A DNA stretch of 64,000 nucleotides, taken from NCBI GenBank assembly GCA_025352665.1, contig JANXSM010000109.1:1-64000 (forward strand), written 5' to 3'. The translations under genes were made by a program, and so were the position numbers. Positions 153 through 56,414 of the stretch are shown here, one piece after another. Below the pieces are notes generated by a model that saw only the letters and a program-made list of their open reading frames with translations, ran no database searches and had not been told where the DNA came from. Position 1 is the first letter of the stretch. Each line of letters opens with the position of its first letter. This DNA is from Rhodospirillales bacterium (GTDB lineage Bacteria > Pseudomonadota > Alphaproteobacteria > Acetobacterales > Acetobacteraceae).

Positions 153-656
153 CTATACGACGAGCCACAGATCAGTGACGCCGATATCGATCCCGGCCCG
201 GGTCAGCAGGGCGTGGGCCTGGCCGCGGTGATGCGTCTGATGGTTGAACATGTGCACCACCAGGCCTGCGGTCGGCGCCTTCATGTCGCGCTGCGTGGCG
301 CCGCTGAACCAGGCGGTATCGCCCGTGAGGAATTCCGGGCTCACCCGCGTCGACCATTCCAGGATCCCGCGATCCGCAGTCTCCCGCTCAGCCTGCAGCA
401 GGTCGAAATCATCGATCGTACCCGGACTGTCGCGCAGCAGAACCCCCGGTTGCGGCCAGCCATCGAAACGTGACATCCACATCCGGTCCGCCCACAGAAG
501 ATGATTGAGTGTTCCCTGCAAGGATTTGAAGAAGGCGCCCTGGTCACGCCTGCGATCGTCGTCGCTCAGGCGGGCCGCGCCGGCATAGGTCCGCTTGTTC
601 ATGGCCGCGTTATAGGCGGCCAGGGTCTTCACATAGTCAGGCGTGATCATGCTCAA
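153..656 (-). CDS. DinB family protein
   Basis: A 167-residue protein of the usual DinB/YfiT four-helix-bundle length. Metal-ligand histidines are seen in NHLLWAD near residue 47 and in the C-terminal HQTHHRGQ motif near residue 140, the spacing typical of the family. Members bind a divalent metal; many act as thiol-dependent S-transferases, but the substrate cannot be inferred here. The start is either TTG at 656, which overlaps the upstream cellulase stop as TTGA, or ATG at 650, 3 nt past that stop. Either way it is probably co-transcribed with the cellulase gene, although no functional link is obvious. Confidence 0.85.
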
Positions 657-3600
657 TACCCTGTGTGCAGCAACTTCACGGACAGCGGCGAACCCAGACC
701 CGCCTGCGTTGCATTGAAGCTGAACACTGCCGTGCCACCCGGTGCAATCACCTTGTTCCAGCTCTCGTTGGACAGCGTGTAGGCGTTGCCGACATGGCTG
801 TTAATGACGGCGCTGTAAAGATTCTGGGTGATCTGGTCGGCGGTGTCGATCTGCACCTGCCACCCATTGATGGTGACATTGCTGGTATTGGTGATGGTGA
901 CCGTATCGTAGACGACCGACGGCCATTCCTGCACATTGAGCGCCACCGTGGCACTCGGTTCATGCACAATGGTGGCGGTGGCGGACCCTAGCGACACCCC
1001 CGCGGGGGTCGACAGATCGAGCATGAAACTCGCCGAACGGCCGGTACTGCCCGGGCTCAGCAAGGTAGCCGGCAGGATCTTGGCAATCTCGCCCGCAGCA
1101 AACGTGACGGTGCCAGAAGCTGCCACATAGTCGGTGCCCGCCACCGCCGTGCCGTCTCGCGTCGCATAGGCGATCGTCACGGGCGTGCTCGCCGGTGCGG
1201 CCAGGCTGATGGTGAAATCGACTTCCGGATGCCCCGCATTGGGCTTGTAGATCAGTTGCTGGACCGCTGCCGCCTGCACCGCGTTGACCGTCACCTCGTC
1301 CGGCATCAGCAGACCGGACGGATTGCCTAACGGGTTGGCGTTCCAGCTCCACCACCCAGAGCCCATGCCCTGCCGGCCTGCCGCCAACGCGGAGCCGGTG
1401 CCATCGGTGTTCAGATAGCTGGTCATCAGTTGCATCCACTGCTGATCGGCAGGGCTGCTCAGGTTGCTGCCGGTCTCGCCCAGGAACACCGGTGCGATGT
1501 TCTGCTGCTCGATATAGCCCCAATGCGCCGTCCACGAGGCCGCCGCGGTGCCGGCGTAGTCGTATGGGTTCAGATAGGGCTCCGGAACCACCGAGGCCGG
1601 GTAGTCATGCGCGGAATACACCAGCTGGTTGGCGGTGTTCAGCGTGACCGGATGGGCCGCCACGCCCTCCAGATTGCCGCCCCAGTTGGTGGCGACCCCG
1701 TTCGTGGTCTGCACTCCCTCAACGATCACCAGCCAATTCGGATTGATGTTGAGAACGCCATTGCCGGCCTTGGTCGCGGCCAGCGCCCAGTCCGTCGCGG
1801 CATTTCCGTCGCCCCAGGTCGCGGGATCATGGGGTTCGTTGAAAAGATCGGCGCCGATCACCGTGCTGTTGCCGTTGTAGCGGGCGGCCAGCATCTGCCA
1901 GTCAGCGAGCCAATGCGCCTGGTCATACACGCCGCTGTACCAAAGCCCGCTGGTGCTCGGGGAATCCTGGGCGTAGCTGTTGTGGTCGTCGAGAATGATC
2001 TTGAGCCCGATCTGGCCGGCGAAGCCGACGATCTTGTCGATCAGCGCCAAACCCTGCAGGCCCACCAGATCCGGGTTCAGCGTGTAGTTGATGGCGGTGG
2101 GTGCCAGGCCGCCCGCCAGCAGCTGGTTGGAAAACGGCAGGCGGATCGTGTTGAACCCTGCGCTGACCATCTGGCGCATGGTCGCCTGCCAGTTGGCGCC
2201 GAGCAGATCGCCTGGGCTGCCCCGCGAATCGTTCAGCCCAAACCAGTTCACCGCTGCAATCCGGACCGCTGCTCCGGTGCTGTCGACAACCTGGTTGCCC
2301 CGCGTGTGCAGGTAGCCGCCCGGCAGCAGGCTGCCTACACCGCCAGAGGCCGCCGCCACGAGACTGACGCTCACATTCCCCACGCTCACCATCGGCACGG
2401 CAGCCGGCGTCGGCGTCGGTGTCGGTGCGGGGCTCGGTGCCGGCGAAGGCGTGGGCGCGGGAACACTCGCCACCGGATACACCAGCGTCTCGCTCGCGCT
2501 CGGTGCCGCCAGGCTCGCGCCCACAGAGTTGCTCAACACCAATGAGAATCGCTGCGTGCCGCTGCCGCCCGCCAGAGTGTGCACCGTCACGGTCTGGCTG
2601 GTCTGCCCCGCCGCAAAGGTGATGTGCCCGCTGGCCGCGGTGTAGTTCACCCCGGCCAGGGCGCTGCCGTTCTGGGTTGCATAGTCGAGCGTCACCGGTT
2701 GCGACAAGGCGGCCGACAGGGCAAGGACGAACATGGCGTCGTGGGTTCCAGCGCTGCTTTCATCGACACTGCCACCGGTGACCGTGATGGAAGGCGTGTT
2801 GACGATGATACCGATTCCGGTCGCCGTTCCCAGCGTGGCACCGATCGGGTTGGAAAGCACAAGGTTGAAACCGCGCGTGCCCAGCAGGCCCAGCTTCGTT
2901 GCGACCGAGATGGTGATGCTGGTCTGGCCCGCAGCGATTGTGGCGGTGCCGGTGCTGGCAACGTAGTCCACTCCGGCCACGGCCGTGCCATCGGCAGTGG
3001 CATAGCTGAAGCTGACCGCAGTCGCACTGGCGGCCGAGAGCGAGACGGTGAAAGTTTCGGCCAAAGCGGTATTGGCCTCGCTCACGCTGCCGCCCTGCAC
3101 CGCCAGGGTCGGCAACACAACTGGCGCCCCGCTGCCGATGGTGGCGCCGTTCACCACGAAACCGGTCGGCAGGCTCGGCCGGCCGCCGTTCGCGTTGAAG
3201 CCGAACACCGCCATGCCCCCGGGCGCCAGCTTCGCATCCCATCCGGCGTCGGTGATGACATAATGCGTGCCGACATGGCTTGCGATCGTGGCGCCCCAGA
3301 TGCCGGTGATCGTGTTCGCCAGATCGAAGGCGACCGACCAGCCGTTGACGCTGGACGAGCCTGTGTTGGTCAGCGTTCCCGAACCGGTGAACCAGGCCCC
3401 GTAATCCGAAACGTCGGCCAGCACAAAGCTATGGCCGGCCGCAACGGGCGCGGGCGTCGGCACCGGGGCCGGCGTCGGAGTGGGTGCAGGAATCGGCGAA
3501 GGTGTGGGAACGGGTGCGGGGGTAGGCACGGGCGCTGGCGTCGGCACAGGCGCTGGGGTCGGCATTGGAACTGGCGCCGGCGTGGGCGTGGGCACTGGGG

Positions 3601-4057
3601 CCGGGGTGGGCACGGGAACCGGCGTGGGCGTAGGCGCTGGGGCCGGGGTGGGAACCGGCGTGGGGCTGGCGCTGCCGCCGATCAGCGTCCCATTGACGAC
3701 GTAGCTCGGCGGGAACACCGGAGCGCCGCCGCTGCCGTTGAAATAGAACGTTACTGAACCGCCGACTGAAACGGTACCGTTCCAATTCAGGTTGTTCACC
3801 ACATAATGGCTGGCCGACTGGCTGACAATCGAGCCACTCCATAGGCTGGTGATTGGGCTCGCCAGATCGAAGCCGACGGACCAGGCGGTAAGCGGCGTCG
3901 TTCCCGTGTTGGTCAGCGTAACAGCAGCATTGAACCAGATGTCATGATCATCCAGCAGAACACTGATCGAGGCGCCCGAACCGCTGATCGGGGCAATGTT
4001 TCGCGTACCAGCCATTGATGGTTTCCGACCGGGAGGACGTGGTTTTACCACCATCAT
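653..4057 (-). CDS. Modular GH5 cellulase with CBM2 and Calx-beta modules
   Basis: A predicted extracellular endoglucanase of 1134 residues. Order seen: CBM2 (about 25-128), Pro/Thr/Ala/Val linker (129-206), CBM2 (206-310), Calx-beta repeats (about 314-419 and 422-522), second Pro linker (525-552), GH5 catalytic domain (about 579-939), third Calx-beta (947-1031) and a C-terminal CBM2 (1034-1134). The GH5 acid/base lies in FNEP near residue 738 and the nucleophile in FLGETGS near 859. CBM2 modules bind crystalline cellulose. No N-terminal signal peptide is visible, so export would need a type I-like or other route. The start may be ATG 4057, which has a poor ribosome site, or ATG 4015, with GGAAA upstream. 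The AT-richer 4058-4178 stretch probably holds its promoter. Confidence 0.9.
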
Positions 4058-5867: not shown

Positions 5868-5941
5868 CGCTCCTGCTCCAGCTTTTTGTTTTATCGCGTG
5901 ATTCAGACCTTTCGGTGATTCCACCTTCGGTCATCACGCTC
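5868..5941 (-). repeat. Dispersed two-hairpin repeat, copy C (truncated)
   Basis: On the minus strand this matches, almost base for base, the first 75 nt or so of the copies at 43649 and 48320: AGCGTGATGACC, GGTGGAATCACC, GGTCTGAATCACG and GATAAAACAAA. The strong second hairpin is replaced by unrelated sequence. It lies between the amidase start and the stop of the beta-solenoid gene, oriented opposite to the other copies relative to the neighbouring genes. Confidence 0.85.
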
Positions 5942-14139: not shown

Positions 14140-14150
14140 TCGGCCGGGTT

Positions 14151-14255
14151 AGAGCAATATCGCCTGAGGTTGAACCAACCGTACGATAAAATTTCTCGTT
14201 AAAACAAGGGTCTAGAGCATGGCCGCTTCGCCTACCAGAAGCGATCAGGCTCTAG
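14151..14255 (+). repeat. Dispersed two-hairpin repeat, copy D (subfamily 2)
   Basis: The first hairpin has an outer stem TATCG/CGATA and an inner stem GGTTG/CAACC. The second has an outer stem CTAGAGC/GCTCTAG and an inner stem GCTTC/GAAGC around the loop GCCTACCA. Read on the minus strand, the second hairpin comes first, is followed by CCTTGTTTTAA, and its first bases are the TAG stop of the Crp/Fnr gene. It fills the gap between two convergent genes and looks like a terminator. Confidence 0.8.
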
Positions 14256-14977
14256 CCAGCCTCGCCGGTGACATGCATCAGCCCGGCGCGGTTACGGATG
14301 GTGATACGGGTCCGTTCCGCCTTCACCAGCCCCGCCTCCTCCAGCGTGTTGATGGCAAGCGACAGGCGGGGACGCCGCGCGCCGAGAAAATTGGCGATGA
14401 CTGTCTGCGCCACCGGCAACGTGTCGCCGTCGACACGATCATGCGCCATCAGCAGCCAGCGCGCACAACGCTGCACCAGGGTATCGCCCACACTGCTGGC
14501 GATCGTCTCGGTGGTTTGGGCCAACAACGTCGCAAGGCTTGCTGCACACAGGGCGTGAAAAAACGGGCATCCCTGGGTCAGCGCCGGCAGTGCGGCAACG
14601 GGTAGCCGCAGTGCCGTGCCGGCACACCACACCAGCGCCGTCGCGGCCGCGGGTGCGCCAGGCATCAGCATCGCCTCGCTCCCCACCGCCGACTCCCGGC
14701 CGATCATGGCGATCTGGACAGACGGCACACCCGCCCGCGGGTCGGTCACCAGCGATGTCACGCCCGATTCGAGAAAGAATATATGGTCTGTCCGCCGCCC
14801 CGTCTCGATCAGGAACTGACCAGGATAGACGCTGATCCGCCGGGCGTGGCGAAGCACCTCGCGCAGCTCACTGTTCGGGAGTGCAGCAACGAGCCCATTA
14901 TGGCTGACTGGAGCGTCCAGGTGTTGAAACAAGACGAACTCTCCCGGCAATATGTTTCTGACGATCCTCCGGACCAC
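14252..14977 (-). CDS. Crp/Fnr family transcriptional regulator
   Basis: A protein of up to 241 residues. A cyclic-nucleotide-binding-like beta barrel (ISVYPGQFLIETGRRTDHIFFLESGVT, about 47-75) is followed by a C-terminal helix-turn-helix (VAQTVIANFLGARRPRLSLAINTLEEAGLV, about 187-217). There is no Fnr-type cysteine cluster, so oxygen sensing by an iron-sulphur centre is unlikely. The start is uncertain: GTG at 14977 has no clear ribosome site, and downstream TTG codons have GGAGG or GGGAGAG before them. Its TAG stop is supplied by the dispersed repeat. Target genes are unknown. Confidence 0.85.
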   Translation of the reverse strand: MVRRIVRNILPGEFVLFQHLDAPVSHNGLVAALPNSELREVLRHARRISVYPGQFLIETGRRTDHIFFLESGVTSLVTDPRAGVPSVQIAMIGRESAVGSEAMLMPGAPAAATALVWCAGTALRLPVAALPALTQGCPFFHALCAASLATLLAQTTETIASSVGDTLVQRCARWLLMAHDRVDGDTLPVAQTVIANFLGARRPRLSLAINTLEEAGLVKAERTRITIRNRAGLMHVTGEAG

Positions 14978-33694: not shown

Positions 33695-35402
<1,708 letters not shown>

Positions 35403-43420: not shown

Positions 43421-43648
43421 AGGGGTTTTCCTTCGGATCTCAGGGCGGGCAACGGGAGGGCGATCAGCGGACGAACGAGAATGATGAAGGCATCACAGAG
43501 CGCTGACCAAATTGTGGCAGGCGGATCATGCTACTGAAACCTTAACCAAGTGACGAAACCTTCCGCCGATCTAGCATGTGTCTGCACGTCCCCCCAGGGC
43601 GAGATGGTGCAACAAAACGATCCATAGAGCGACATGGTTCACGCCTAA

Positions 43649-43750
43649 AGCGTGATAACCGAAGGTGGAATCACCGAAAGGTCTGAATCACGCGATAAAA
43701 CAAAGAACTTAGAGCGTGATGACGTCGCCTAGCAGACGTCATCACGCTCC
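43649..43750 (+). repeat. Dispersed two-hairpin repeat, copy A (subfamily 1)
   Basis: The most complete copy. The first hairpin has outer arms CGTGATnACC and GGTctgaATCACG and inner arms GGTG/CACC. The second is a perfect 14-bp stem (AGCGTGATGACGTC with its complement) around GCCTAGCA. Read on the minus strand, the strong hairpin comes first and is followed by TTCTTTGTTTTATC, a terminator-like layout 28 bp past the stop of the J-domain gene. Copies at 48320 and 5941 share most bases. Confidence 0.9.
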
Positions 43751-43778
43751 AGGGAAAACTTTCCGCCAAAAGGCGCCG

Positions 43779-44222
43779 TCATGGCAGCAAAACGTCACGC
43801 GCCTGGTTGATGCGCGCTGCCAGCCAGTCAGAGCCGCCCTGGTCGGGGTGGGCTGCCCGCATCAGGCGCAGATAGGCAGCCTGGATACCCTCGCTGCTGG
43901 CACCTGGCGGCAGCCCGAGCACTTCGAAGGCCTCGGCGCGCGTCATGGCGCCGGCGCGGGGCGGCGGCTGCGGGCGTGCGGTCCGGCTCATCGGGCGCCC
44001 TTCCAAGATCCAGCTCCACAGCAGCGGTCCCAACAGCGCCAGTGCAGCCAACGCCACGCCGGAGCGGCCAGTGAGGAACAGCAACGCGGCCAGCAACAGA
44101 CCGCCGATCGCTGCGGTCCAGATGCCCATCTGCCTGATGCCGTCAACCTGGGCACGCGTGAACTTGCCCAGGGCCGCCATGACGACCAGCAGCGTGGCGC
44201 ATCCCAGCAGCAGGGCTATCAC
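43779..44222 (-). CDS. Membrane-anchored J-domain protein
   Basis: A 147-residue protein with two N-terminal membrane helices (about residues 2-18 and 33-70) and a short C-terminal J-like domain (about 92-147). The HPD motif is in RAAHPDQGGSDWLAARINQARD. The layout resembles TIM14/DjlA-type co-chaperones that recruit DnaK to the inner membrane. It overlaps the upstream malic enzyme gene by 4 bp (ATGA) and is therefore co-transcribed with it, without an obvious metabolic link. Confidence 0.85.
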   Translation of the reverse strand: MIALLLGCATLLVVMAALGKFTRAQVDGIRQMGIWTAAIGGLLLAALLFLTGRSGVALAALALLGPLLWSWILEGRPMSRTARPQPPPRAGAMTRAEAFEVLGLPPGASSEGIQAAYLRLMRAAHPDQGGSDWLAARINQARDVLLP

Positions 44223-48139: not shown

Positions 48140-48319
48140 TGCACTTCTCCTCGGCCCGATCGCACGGAACTGTGCGCGACGACGACCGGCAAGAGGATGC
48201 ACACGCACAGTGGAACAGGCAACGATCACGCTGCTCGCGGCGGGTTTCCTGGCTCTCGCGCATTCCCATCCGGCGTCGGCACGGCCGTACGCGGGGTGGG
48301 CGACCTTGCGGCCGGCTAC

Positions 48320-48420
48320 AGCGTGATGACCGAAGGTAGAATCACCGAAAGGTCTGAATCACGCAATAAAACGAAGAGCTAGAGCGGGATTACGTCGCCT
48401 GTCGGACGTCATCACGCTCT
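48320..48420 (+). repeat. Dispersed two-hairpin repeat, copy B (subfamily 1)
   Basis: Nearly identical to copy A in the first hairpin (AGCGTGATGACC, GAATCACCGAAAGGTCTGAATC) and close in the second (AGAGCGGGATTACGTC with GACGTCATCACGCTCT, loop GCCTGTCG). On the minus strand it lies hairpin-first, 58 bp past the acylphosphatase stop, followed by CTTCGTTTTATTGCG. Confidence 0.88.
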
Positions 48421-48478
48421 GGGACACGGACAACGACGCGGCGGACCTCTCGTTGCCTTTCCGGACCCACCAGAGCGG

Positions 48479-54800: not shown

Positions 54801-54880
54801 TGTCTAAATCCCTATCATGACCACTCGCCAATGCGTTCCTGACGCAATGGCGAAAAGTGATCGAACAAATGGTTCGCTCT

Positions 54881-54982
54881 GAAGCAATCTCGCCGGCAGC
54901 CAAGCCAACCGCCAGCTAAATTACGTATCAAAACAAAGGCAAGATCCTCACCGCTTCGCCTACCAGAAGCGACCAGGTGCTA
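54881..54982 (+). repeat. Dispersed two-hairpin repeat, copy E (subfamily 2)
   Basis: It aligns with copy D: AGCAATNTCGCC, AAGCCAACC, TAAAACAA-like ATCAAAACAAAGG, and the second hairpin GCTTC-GCCTACCA-GAAGC with flanking CACC/GGTG pairing. The first hairpin is decayed. On the minus strand its first bases supply the TAG stop of rpoA, and the hairpin is followed by CTTTGTTTTGA. It sits between rpoA and rplQ, inside an essential operon. Confidence 0.75.
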
Positions 54983-56011
54983 GAACGGCTCCTCGAGCCG
55001 GCGCGCGAGATCTTCAACATTCTCAGGCGGCCAACCAACAACGCTCATACCCAGCGACAGGCCCATGGAGGCAAGAACCTCCTTGATTTCGTTGAGCGAC
55101 TTGCGGCCGAAGTTTGGCGTCCGCAGCATTTCCTGTTCAGACTTCTGAACGAGATCACCGATATAGACGATGTTGTCGTTCTTGAGGCAATTGGCCGAAC
55201 GCACCGAAAGCTCCAACTCGTCAACCTTGCGCAGCAGATTGCGATTGAACGGCAGATCGTCCTGCGGCTCCTCATGACGCACTGCCTGCGGCTCATCGAA
55301 GTTGATGAACAGCTGCAGCTGGTCCTGTAAGATACGGGATGCCAAAGCCACGGCGTCCTCAGGCGAAACAGCACCGTTGGTCTCAACGGTCAGCAGCAAC
55401 TTGTCGTAGTCGGTGATCTGACCCACGCGAGTCGGCTCAACCTTGTAGGACACGCGCCGCACCGGCGAGAAGATGCTGTCGACTGGAATCAGTCCGATCG
55501 GCGCATCCTCAGGGCGGTTGGCCGAAGCCGGCACATAACCCTTTGAGCTGTTGACCGTGAACTCCATGCCCAGCTTGATACCGTCATCGAGTGTGCAAAT
55601 CACCAGATCTGGGTTCATCACGTCGATGTCATGCCCGGCCTGGATCTGGCCAGCCCGAACTTCACCGGGGCCAGTGGCCGTCAACACCATGCGCTTGGGG
55701 CCATCGCCATGCATCCGCAGTGCAAGCTGCTTGATGTTCAGCACGATGTCGGTGACGTCTTCGCGGACGCCTGGGATCGAGCTGAATTCATGCAGCACGC
55801 CGTCGATCTGCACGGCAGTGACGGCAGCGCCTTGCAGCGACGACATCAGCACGCGGCGAATAGCATTGCCCAACGTCATGCCGAAACCGCGCTCCAGCGG
55901 CTCCGCGATGATCGTCGCCAAGCGTGACGGATCAGACCCGGGCTCGACGTCGAGCTTTTCCGGCTTGATCAGCGACTGCCAATTCTTCTGTAAGACTGCG
56001 GACAATCTCAT
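54980..56011 (-). CDS. rpoA: RNA polymerase alpha subunit
   Basis: A 343-residue subunit. ATG 56011, with GAGG upstream, gives [20 protein letters not shown]. The N-terminal dimerisation domain ([18 protein letters not shown], to about 230) and the C-terminal DNA- and activator-binding domain ([20 protein letters not shown], about 255-330) are complete. The TAG stop lies in a dispersed repeat. Confidence 0.97.
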
Positions 56012-56021
56012 GCTGGTGGCC

Positions 56022-56414
56022 TCAAACGCGCCGCCGCTTGCGCGGACGGCAGCCATTGTGCGGAACAGGCGTGGTGTCGCGGATCGCTGTGATCGAGAAG
56101 CCAACCGCTTGCAAAGCACGCAGCGCGCTCTCGCGGCCCGAACCAGGACCGTTCACTTCAATCTCAAGTGTCTCCATACCATGCTCGCGCGCCTTTTTAC
56201 CGGCGTCCTCGGCTGCGACTTGCGCGGCATAGGGGGTGCTCTTGCGGCTGCCCTTAAAGCCCTGCGCACCGGCGGACGACCAGGCAATCGTGTTGCCCTG
56301 GGCATCGGTGATGGTGATCATGGTGTTATTGAACGTCGCGGCCACATGGGCCACGCCGGAGGTGATATTCTTGCGTTCCTTTTTACGGGTACGCGCGGCG
56401 GCTGGCTTCGCCAT
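56022..56414 (-). CDS. rpsK: Ribosomal protein uS11
   Basis: A 130-residue small-subunit platform protein. [41 protein letters not shown] and the C-terminal [13 protein letters not shown] are diagnostic. It lies 10 bp upstream of the rpoA start. Confidence 0.97.

Follow-up and report, generated by a model that had tools for sequence, protein, structure and literature searches.

The two-armed repeats of ~105 bp in this genome are, as read from sequence, very probably non-autonomous MITEs of the IS630/Tc1 type, which would insert at YTAR sites, keep intact any stop codon on which they land, and take their present distribution from target supply together with selection.

Repeat architecture and copies in the window

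The repeat unit is ~105 bp long, contains no transposase gene, and has two arms, one weak and one strong, connected by an A-rich linker; its boundaries read TA-GAGC...GCTC-TA. Two main families share this layout: family A (TAGAGCGTGATGACCGAAGGTGGAATCACC...AAAACAAAGAGCTAGAGCGGGAT...GCTCTA) and family B (TAGAGCAATATCGCC...AAAACAAAAGGCTAGAGCCTGATCGC...GCTCTA). A third two-armed family, C (CTAGAGCATGATCCGCGC...GGTGATTCTGTTTGG...GCTCTAG), was seen at L071, L069, L095, and L116 and has GATTC near one arm tip. The motif GANTC was present in 48 of 49 family A copies, against a background density of 1.18 per kb across the sample, and in just 7 of 27 family B copies.

Genome-wide, at least 174 strong arms were counted, while the reversed-pattern control returned none. 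Some copies are nested within another copy; others stand in tandem, joined at one common TA. The repeats matched no Rfam family and no plasmid record. The search of 190 genomes of the class gave a single weak match outside the bacterial family, and the repeat sequence is nearly restricted to this family among the genomes searched.

The window, that is, the whole 64-kb stretch of DNA analysed, contains five copies of the repeat. Its rpoA relatives point to an alphaproteobacterium, probably a member of the Acetobacteraceae. These copies and the genes adjoining two of them are as follows:

5871-5941, minus strand: family A copy, cut off within the strong arm
14150-14254, plus strand: full-length family B copy, with TA at 14150-14151 and 14253-14254
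~14152-14197 and 14212-14254, plus strand: weak arm and strong arm of the preceding copy, separated by the A-rich linker
14252-14254, minus strand: TAG, the stop codon of the Crp/Fnr-type regulator gene, made up of the boundary TA and element base 1 (G)
14252-14977, minus strand: Crp/Fnr-type regulator (cNMP_binding and HTH_Crp_2), 3' end at the element
43646-43751, plus strand: family A copy, GANTC motif (GAATC) at the weak-arm tip
48317-48421, plus strand: family A copy, downstream of minus-strand genes
54880-54982, plus strand: older, diverged family B copy; strong-arm end is the rpoA stop, far-side TA changed to TG
54980-56119, minus strand: rpoA, TAG stop at 54982-54980, C-terminus ...LEEPF

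The plus-strand end of the copy at 14150-14254 reads GCTC-TA-G. According to an earlier note on this DNA, the boundary TAG is at the same time the stop codon of the Crp/Fnr gene and of rpoA; this was confirmed at 14252-14254 and 54980-54982. Relatives ~48% identical to the Crp/Fnr-type regulator align up to its final residues. The copy at 43646-43751 is located off-stop; a minus-strand gene (43779-44222) has its stop 29 nt away. Two unrelated features of the window were also recorded: a match to the Rfam family 5_ureB_sRNA (104 bits) at 33846-34131 on the minus strand, and an 18/30-bp G-rich direct-repeat array (3441-3650) within a long minus-strand ORF (653-4057).

Stop codons at the element boundary

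The sample used for counting comprised 80 stretches of up to 20 kb from the same genome, picked by contig and not by content, together with the window (1.64 Mb in total), in which a dicodon gene finder predicted 1547 genes. A profile search revealed 125 copies at 108 places or clusters. At 58 of the 171 free ends, i.e. ends not adjoining another copy, the exact in-frame stop of an incoming gene forms the boundary, which covers 53-54 of the 108 places. No other offset of a gene stop relative to the element end recurs more than four times, and genes stopping at or within an element end do so at the boundary in frame 0 in 58 cases versus 11 elsewhere. This coincidence is not due to chance. The proposal of the earlier note that the repeat spreads to gene ends is supported, about half of the copies being located exactly at the end of a gene. 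Seen from the genes, 54 of the 302 TAG stops in the sample (about 18%) are element boundaries.

Of 76 full copies, 51 have an intact TA on both sides; for 50 of these 51, the tetramer of the corresponding empty site is YTAR. One clean empty site was detected. Namely, when the sequences on either side of the L100:11258-11362 copy are joined through a single TA, they align gap-free at the junction to the congener G003 (TTTAGGGAG / TTTAAGGAG), in which the gene at this site ends TTTAAGG with the stop TAA. That only one such site was found is due to the nearest genomes compared being separate species. TA-bounded copies, YTAR sites, and the empty site agree well with the mobility that the earlier note had attributed to the repeat.

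The idea that the element donates the stop codon did not survive this analysis. The target is YTAR with its TA duplicated, so TAA or TAG pre-existed and the element gives G only. An in-frame YTAR target is always a prior gene end, because in-frame TAA and TAG occur as stops only. The far-side TA is intact in 28 single stop-located copies; 17 of them have G directly after it, 11 have A, and none has C or T. The pre-insertion stop can thus be read from the flank, and in the 11 copies followed by A a TAA was turned into TAG. The Crp/Fnr-type gene had TAA according to the far-side flank of the copy at 14150-14254; its present stop is TAG. Insertion therefore preserves the stop, or converts TAA to TAG, and is not a donation.

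Comparison of C-termini with relatives lacking the repeat, the check named in the earlier note, showed that the residues match. For 24 stop-located genes and their orthologues from the genus, the difference in C-terminal length was zero in 69 of 97 comparisons and did not exceed 5 residues in 96. RpoA ends in EEPF or a near variant whether the element is present or absent, and in its relatives the stop (TGA, TAG, or TAA) comes at the same position, after ...EPF. Since the stop is TGA in 56 of the 97 relatives of stop-located genes, stops have turned over at such a distance; the old stop is therefore revealed by the far flank and not by the relatives.

These lengths also bear on the alternative that the repeats insert within genes and donate a new stop, so that the protein is shortened or lengthened. 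Such cases are present: an element-coded tail of 3-17 residues (e.g. LERDDV) followed by a stop was identified at 11 ends. One gene is extended by ~13 residues relative to its orthologues (L118:4340), with short extensions elsewhere, and one is shortened by ~71-83 residues (L103:17363); judging by their motifs, these genes are presumably TruA-like and TctA-like, respectively. However, the 11 ends are only a small part of the 171, and random insertion within genes would be expected to fill the three frames equally, whereas 58 (frame 0, boundary) versus 4 and 5 (the other frames) were observed. Orthologues are not longer, and for the stop-located class their C-terminal lengths mostly refute donation within genes. 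As a general explanation it is very unlikely.

Placement, orientation, and the candidate IS630 partner

None of the 108 places in the 1.64 Mb lies wholly within a gene. The numbers of occupied versus free YTAR sites were 54 vs 171 at stops, 12 vs 102 between convergent genes, 19 vs 401 between tandem genes, 5 vs 210 in divergent gaps, and 0 vs 736 inside genes. Among further clusters, 16 had a gene running in and one cut a gene start. Stops are over-used relative to all YTAR sites (p about 7e-25) and to non-coding YTAR sites (binomial p about 3e-17). Placement regardless of gene ends, the contrary outcome considered in the earlier note, was not observed: stops account for 54 of the 90 occupied non-coding places versus 19% of the unoccupied ones. 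Relative to convergent gaps, the occupancy of stops has an odds ratio of 2.7 (p = 0.003) when YTAR is the denominator; when CTAG is the denominator, occupancy is equal at stops (50%) and convergent gaps (52%), with 17% for tandem and 8% for divergent gaps. Target supply and the loss of harmful insertions explain most of the placement, the share of selection being one that we infer, and part of the excess of stops over convergent gaps may fall outside this explanation.

Similar placement was found in relatives. Among family A copies of five relatives, the boundary is the exact stop at 11 of 14 ends with a clear incoming frame (one G017 locus counted twice). The congener G007 possesses a separate family (TAGATCATGATGCG...GCTCTA) of at least 40 copies; among the best ones listed, the majority are 92-97% identical to the query. 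Across 30 loci of this family (L374-L403, of which L385 and L403 are near-duplicates), TA is present on both sides in 26, the flanks are YTAR in 29, the remaining one being at a contig edge, and 15 loci, rpoA included, are on stops. This near-uniform family, in which many copies are 94-97% identical, looks like a recent burst. At the rpoA stop, the G007 family is attached via its weak arm and family B of the window genome via its strong arm; in the congener G005, a degraded family A remnant directly follows the rpoA stop. The G007 family also occupies the same stop in two more orthologues of stop-located genes. A family A copy in another genus (G017, L335) has an upstream flank seemingly identical to that of L024 from the window genome, which suggests transfer between genera or cross-binning.

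In three congeners, an element with this architecture is located on the rpoA stop or immediately behind it, which could be taken to mean that the elements are non-mobile ancestral 3' structures, inherited vertically with their genes. This is extremely improbable, given that the rpoA stop holds different families, ends, and orientations, that other congeners have no element there, and that nested copies as well as near-identical copies at unrelated genes occur. The retaking of the same stops by different families (rpoA, three congeners), together with the ~18% of TAG stops that are boundaries, gives rise to the idea that active targeting steers the elements to gene 3' ends, over and above YTAR supply and selection, and that they serve as exchangeable 3'-end modules. 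We consider this unlikely.

Another possibility, put forward in the earlier note, is that the copies are mobile terminators, which would persist at gene ends owing to transcription termination, as predicted for the strong arm with CTTTGTTTT behind it. The hairpin of the strong arm is genuine. Its predicted folding energy in the window copies is -36 to -50 kcal/mol, z-scores of the family A fold go down to about -9, and the stem shows compensatory changes, such as the replacement of G-C by T-A at pair 71/98, which also favour a terminator role. The tract after the strong arm on one strand is U-rich but interrupted (GCUCUUUGUUUU). In line with termination, strong hairpins with the U-rich linker are kept in families A and B and in the third family, 55 of the 108 places lie between convergent genes, and the single long terminator-like match in a scan of the window is at 43751. 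Placement driven by termination would, however, mean that genes enter through the strong arm. The earlier note had described such an orientation relative to minus-strand gene ends, and it is indeed seen in four of the five window copies, but it does not extend to the genome: exact stops meet the strong arm in 26 cases and the weak arm in 32 (p = 0.51), and gene ends within 60 nt of an element do so in 42 and 46 cases, respectively. The four-of-five orientation is a small-sample accident. Orientation bias is also absent where the next gene is co-oriented (strong 9, weak 10), including within apparent operons, and several co-oriented genes begin just 11-50 nt past the element, a position at which polar effects would be expected from a strong terminator. 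The terminator idea is thus unsupported by orientation, and we regard it as quite unlikely.

The genome contains a whole IS630 element of ~1.05 kb (L126:981-2028), with HTH_23 and DDE_3 encoded in two overlapping frames and TA at both ends. Its split transposase frames suggest programmed frameshifting. One end of this element (GAGCGTGATGACGTTTG) differs from the strong end of family A (GAGCGTGATGACGTCTG) at 1 of 17 bases; family B resembles the IS630 ends only weakly and matches none of them closely. Two further IS630 elements end CTAGAGC...GCTCTAG. The IS630 elements L126 and L127 were checked for stop placement, and no clear coding frame ends at either. The IS630 element L128:1200-2255 interrupts an IstB-like gene, and joining its flanks gives a TAG codon at the insertion point.

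The arms are palindromic with CTAG at their base, and the copies are numerous and partly arranged in arrays. These features would also be expected of REP/RAYT or IS200/IS605-type mobile palindromes, which move as single strands and for which CTAG would be the guide tetranucleotide. Membership in this group implies a Y1 transposase and transposition without target duplication, whereas the present repeats have the duplicated TA at either end, and TA is already there in the empty site. With an IS630 partner with matching ends also present, this origin is highly improbable.

The preferred reading, a non-autonomous IS630/Tc1-type MITE, involves the following steps. An IS630-type transposase would act in trans and insert the element at YTAR, mostly CTAG, TTAG, or CTAA, with duplication of TA; the element at L126 is the candidate source of this mobilisation. 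As the ends read inward TA-GAGC, the target TA plus the G of the element would form TAG, by which a stop is kept and TAA becomes TAG. Selection would purge insertions in genes or promoters, while those on stops and between convergent genes would persist; such survival would lead to half of the places being on stops. IS630-family elements are known to insert into TA with duplication of this dinucleotide (PMC2170065), and a preference of IS630 for CTAG is attributed to Tenzen and Ohtsubo (1991) as cited there.

Relation to known repeats and significance

CcrM-associated intergenic repeats (CIR) are described from Caulobacter, Brucella, and other alphaproteobacteria (Chen and Shapiro, 2003, as summarised in PMC2229807). 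Compared by this description, the repeats studied here resemble CIR in length (~105-110 bp), in the presence of two arms and a linker, in TA termini, intergenic location, and many copies. Another CIR feature, a GANTC site in or close to the loop that tips one arm, is displayed by family A (48/49) but mostly lacking in family B (7/27). The 2007 review listed the target duplication of CIR as unknown and their mobility as unresolved (PMC2229807); TA duplication, the YTAR site, a candidate IS630 partner, and stop-codon placement go beyond the CIR description.

The closest system in terms of function is RUP of Streptococcus pneumoniae, for which mobilisation by IS630-Spn1 was proposed (PMC2229807). 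RUP elements are likewise ~107 bp long, occur in ~100 copies, use a TA target, and have ends resembling an IS630 of the same genome. Unlike our repeats, they are not described as two-armed, and stop-codon placement is not reported for them (PMC2229807). With the IS630/Tc1-mariner family at large, the common features are a DDE_3 transposase, TA duplication, and CTAG preference; the differences are that the repeats here are gene-free and use a broader site, YTAR. MITEs that at times supply a C-terminus and a stop are QMITE2 of Coxiella (PMC5896051) and MITEAba12 (PMC6382973); as far as the available text of these papers goes, single cases are reported and a general stop-preserving rule is not described.

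The combination of a palindromic YTAR target and a terminal G would make each insertion on a stop codon silent at the protein level. This rule would explain how the elements could spread harmlessly to hundreds of copies in a gene-dense genome. It would also connect the CIR-type repeats, long known from alphaproteobacteria, with an IS630 mechanism and make the locations of such repeats predictable. Finally, 54 of 302 TAG stops at element boundaries indicate that a mobile element can shift stop-codon usage.
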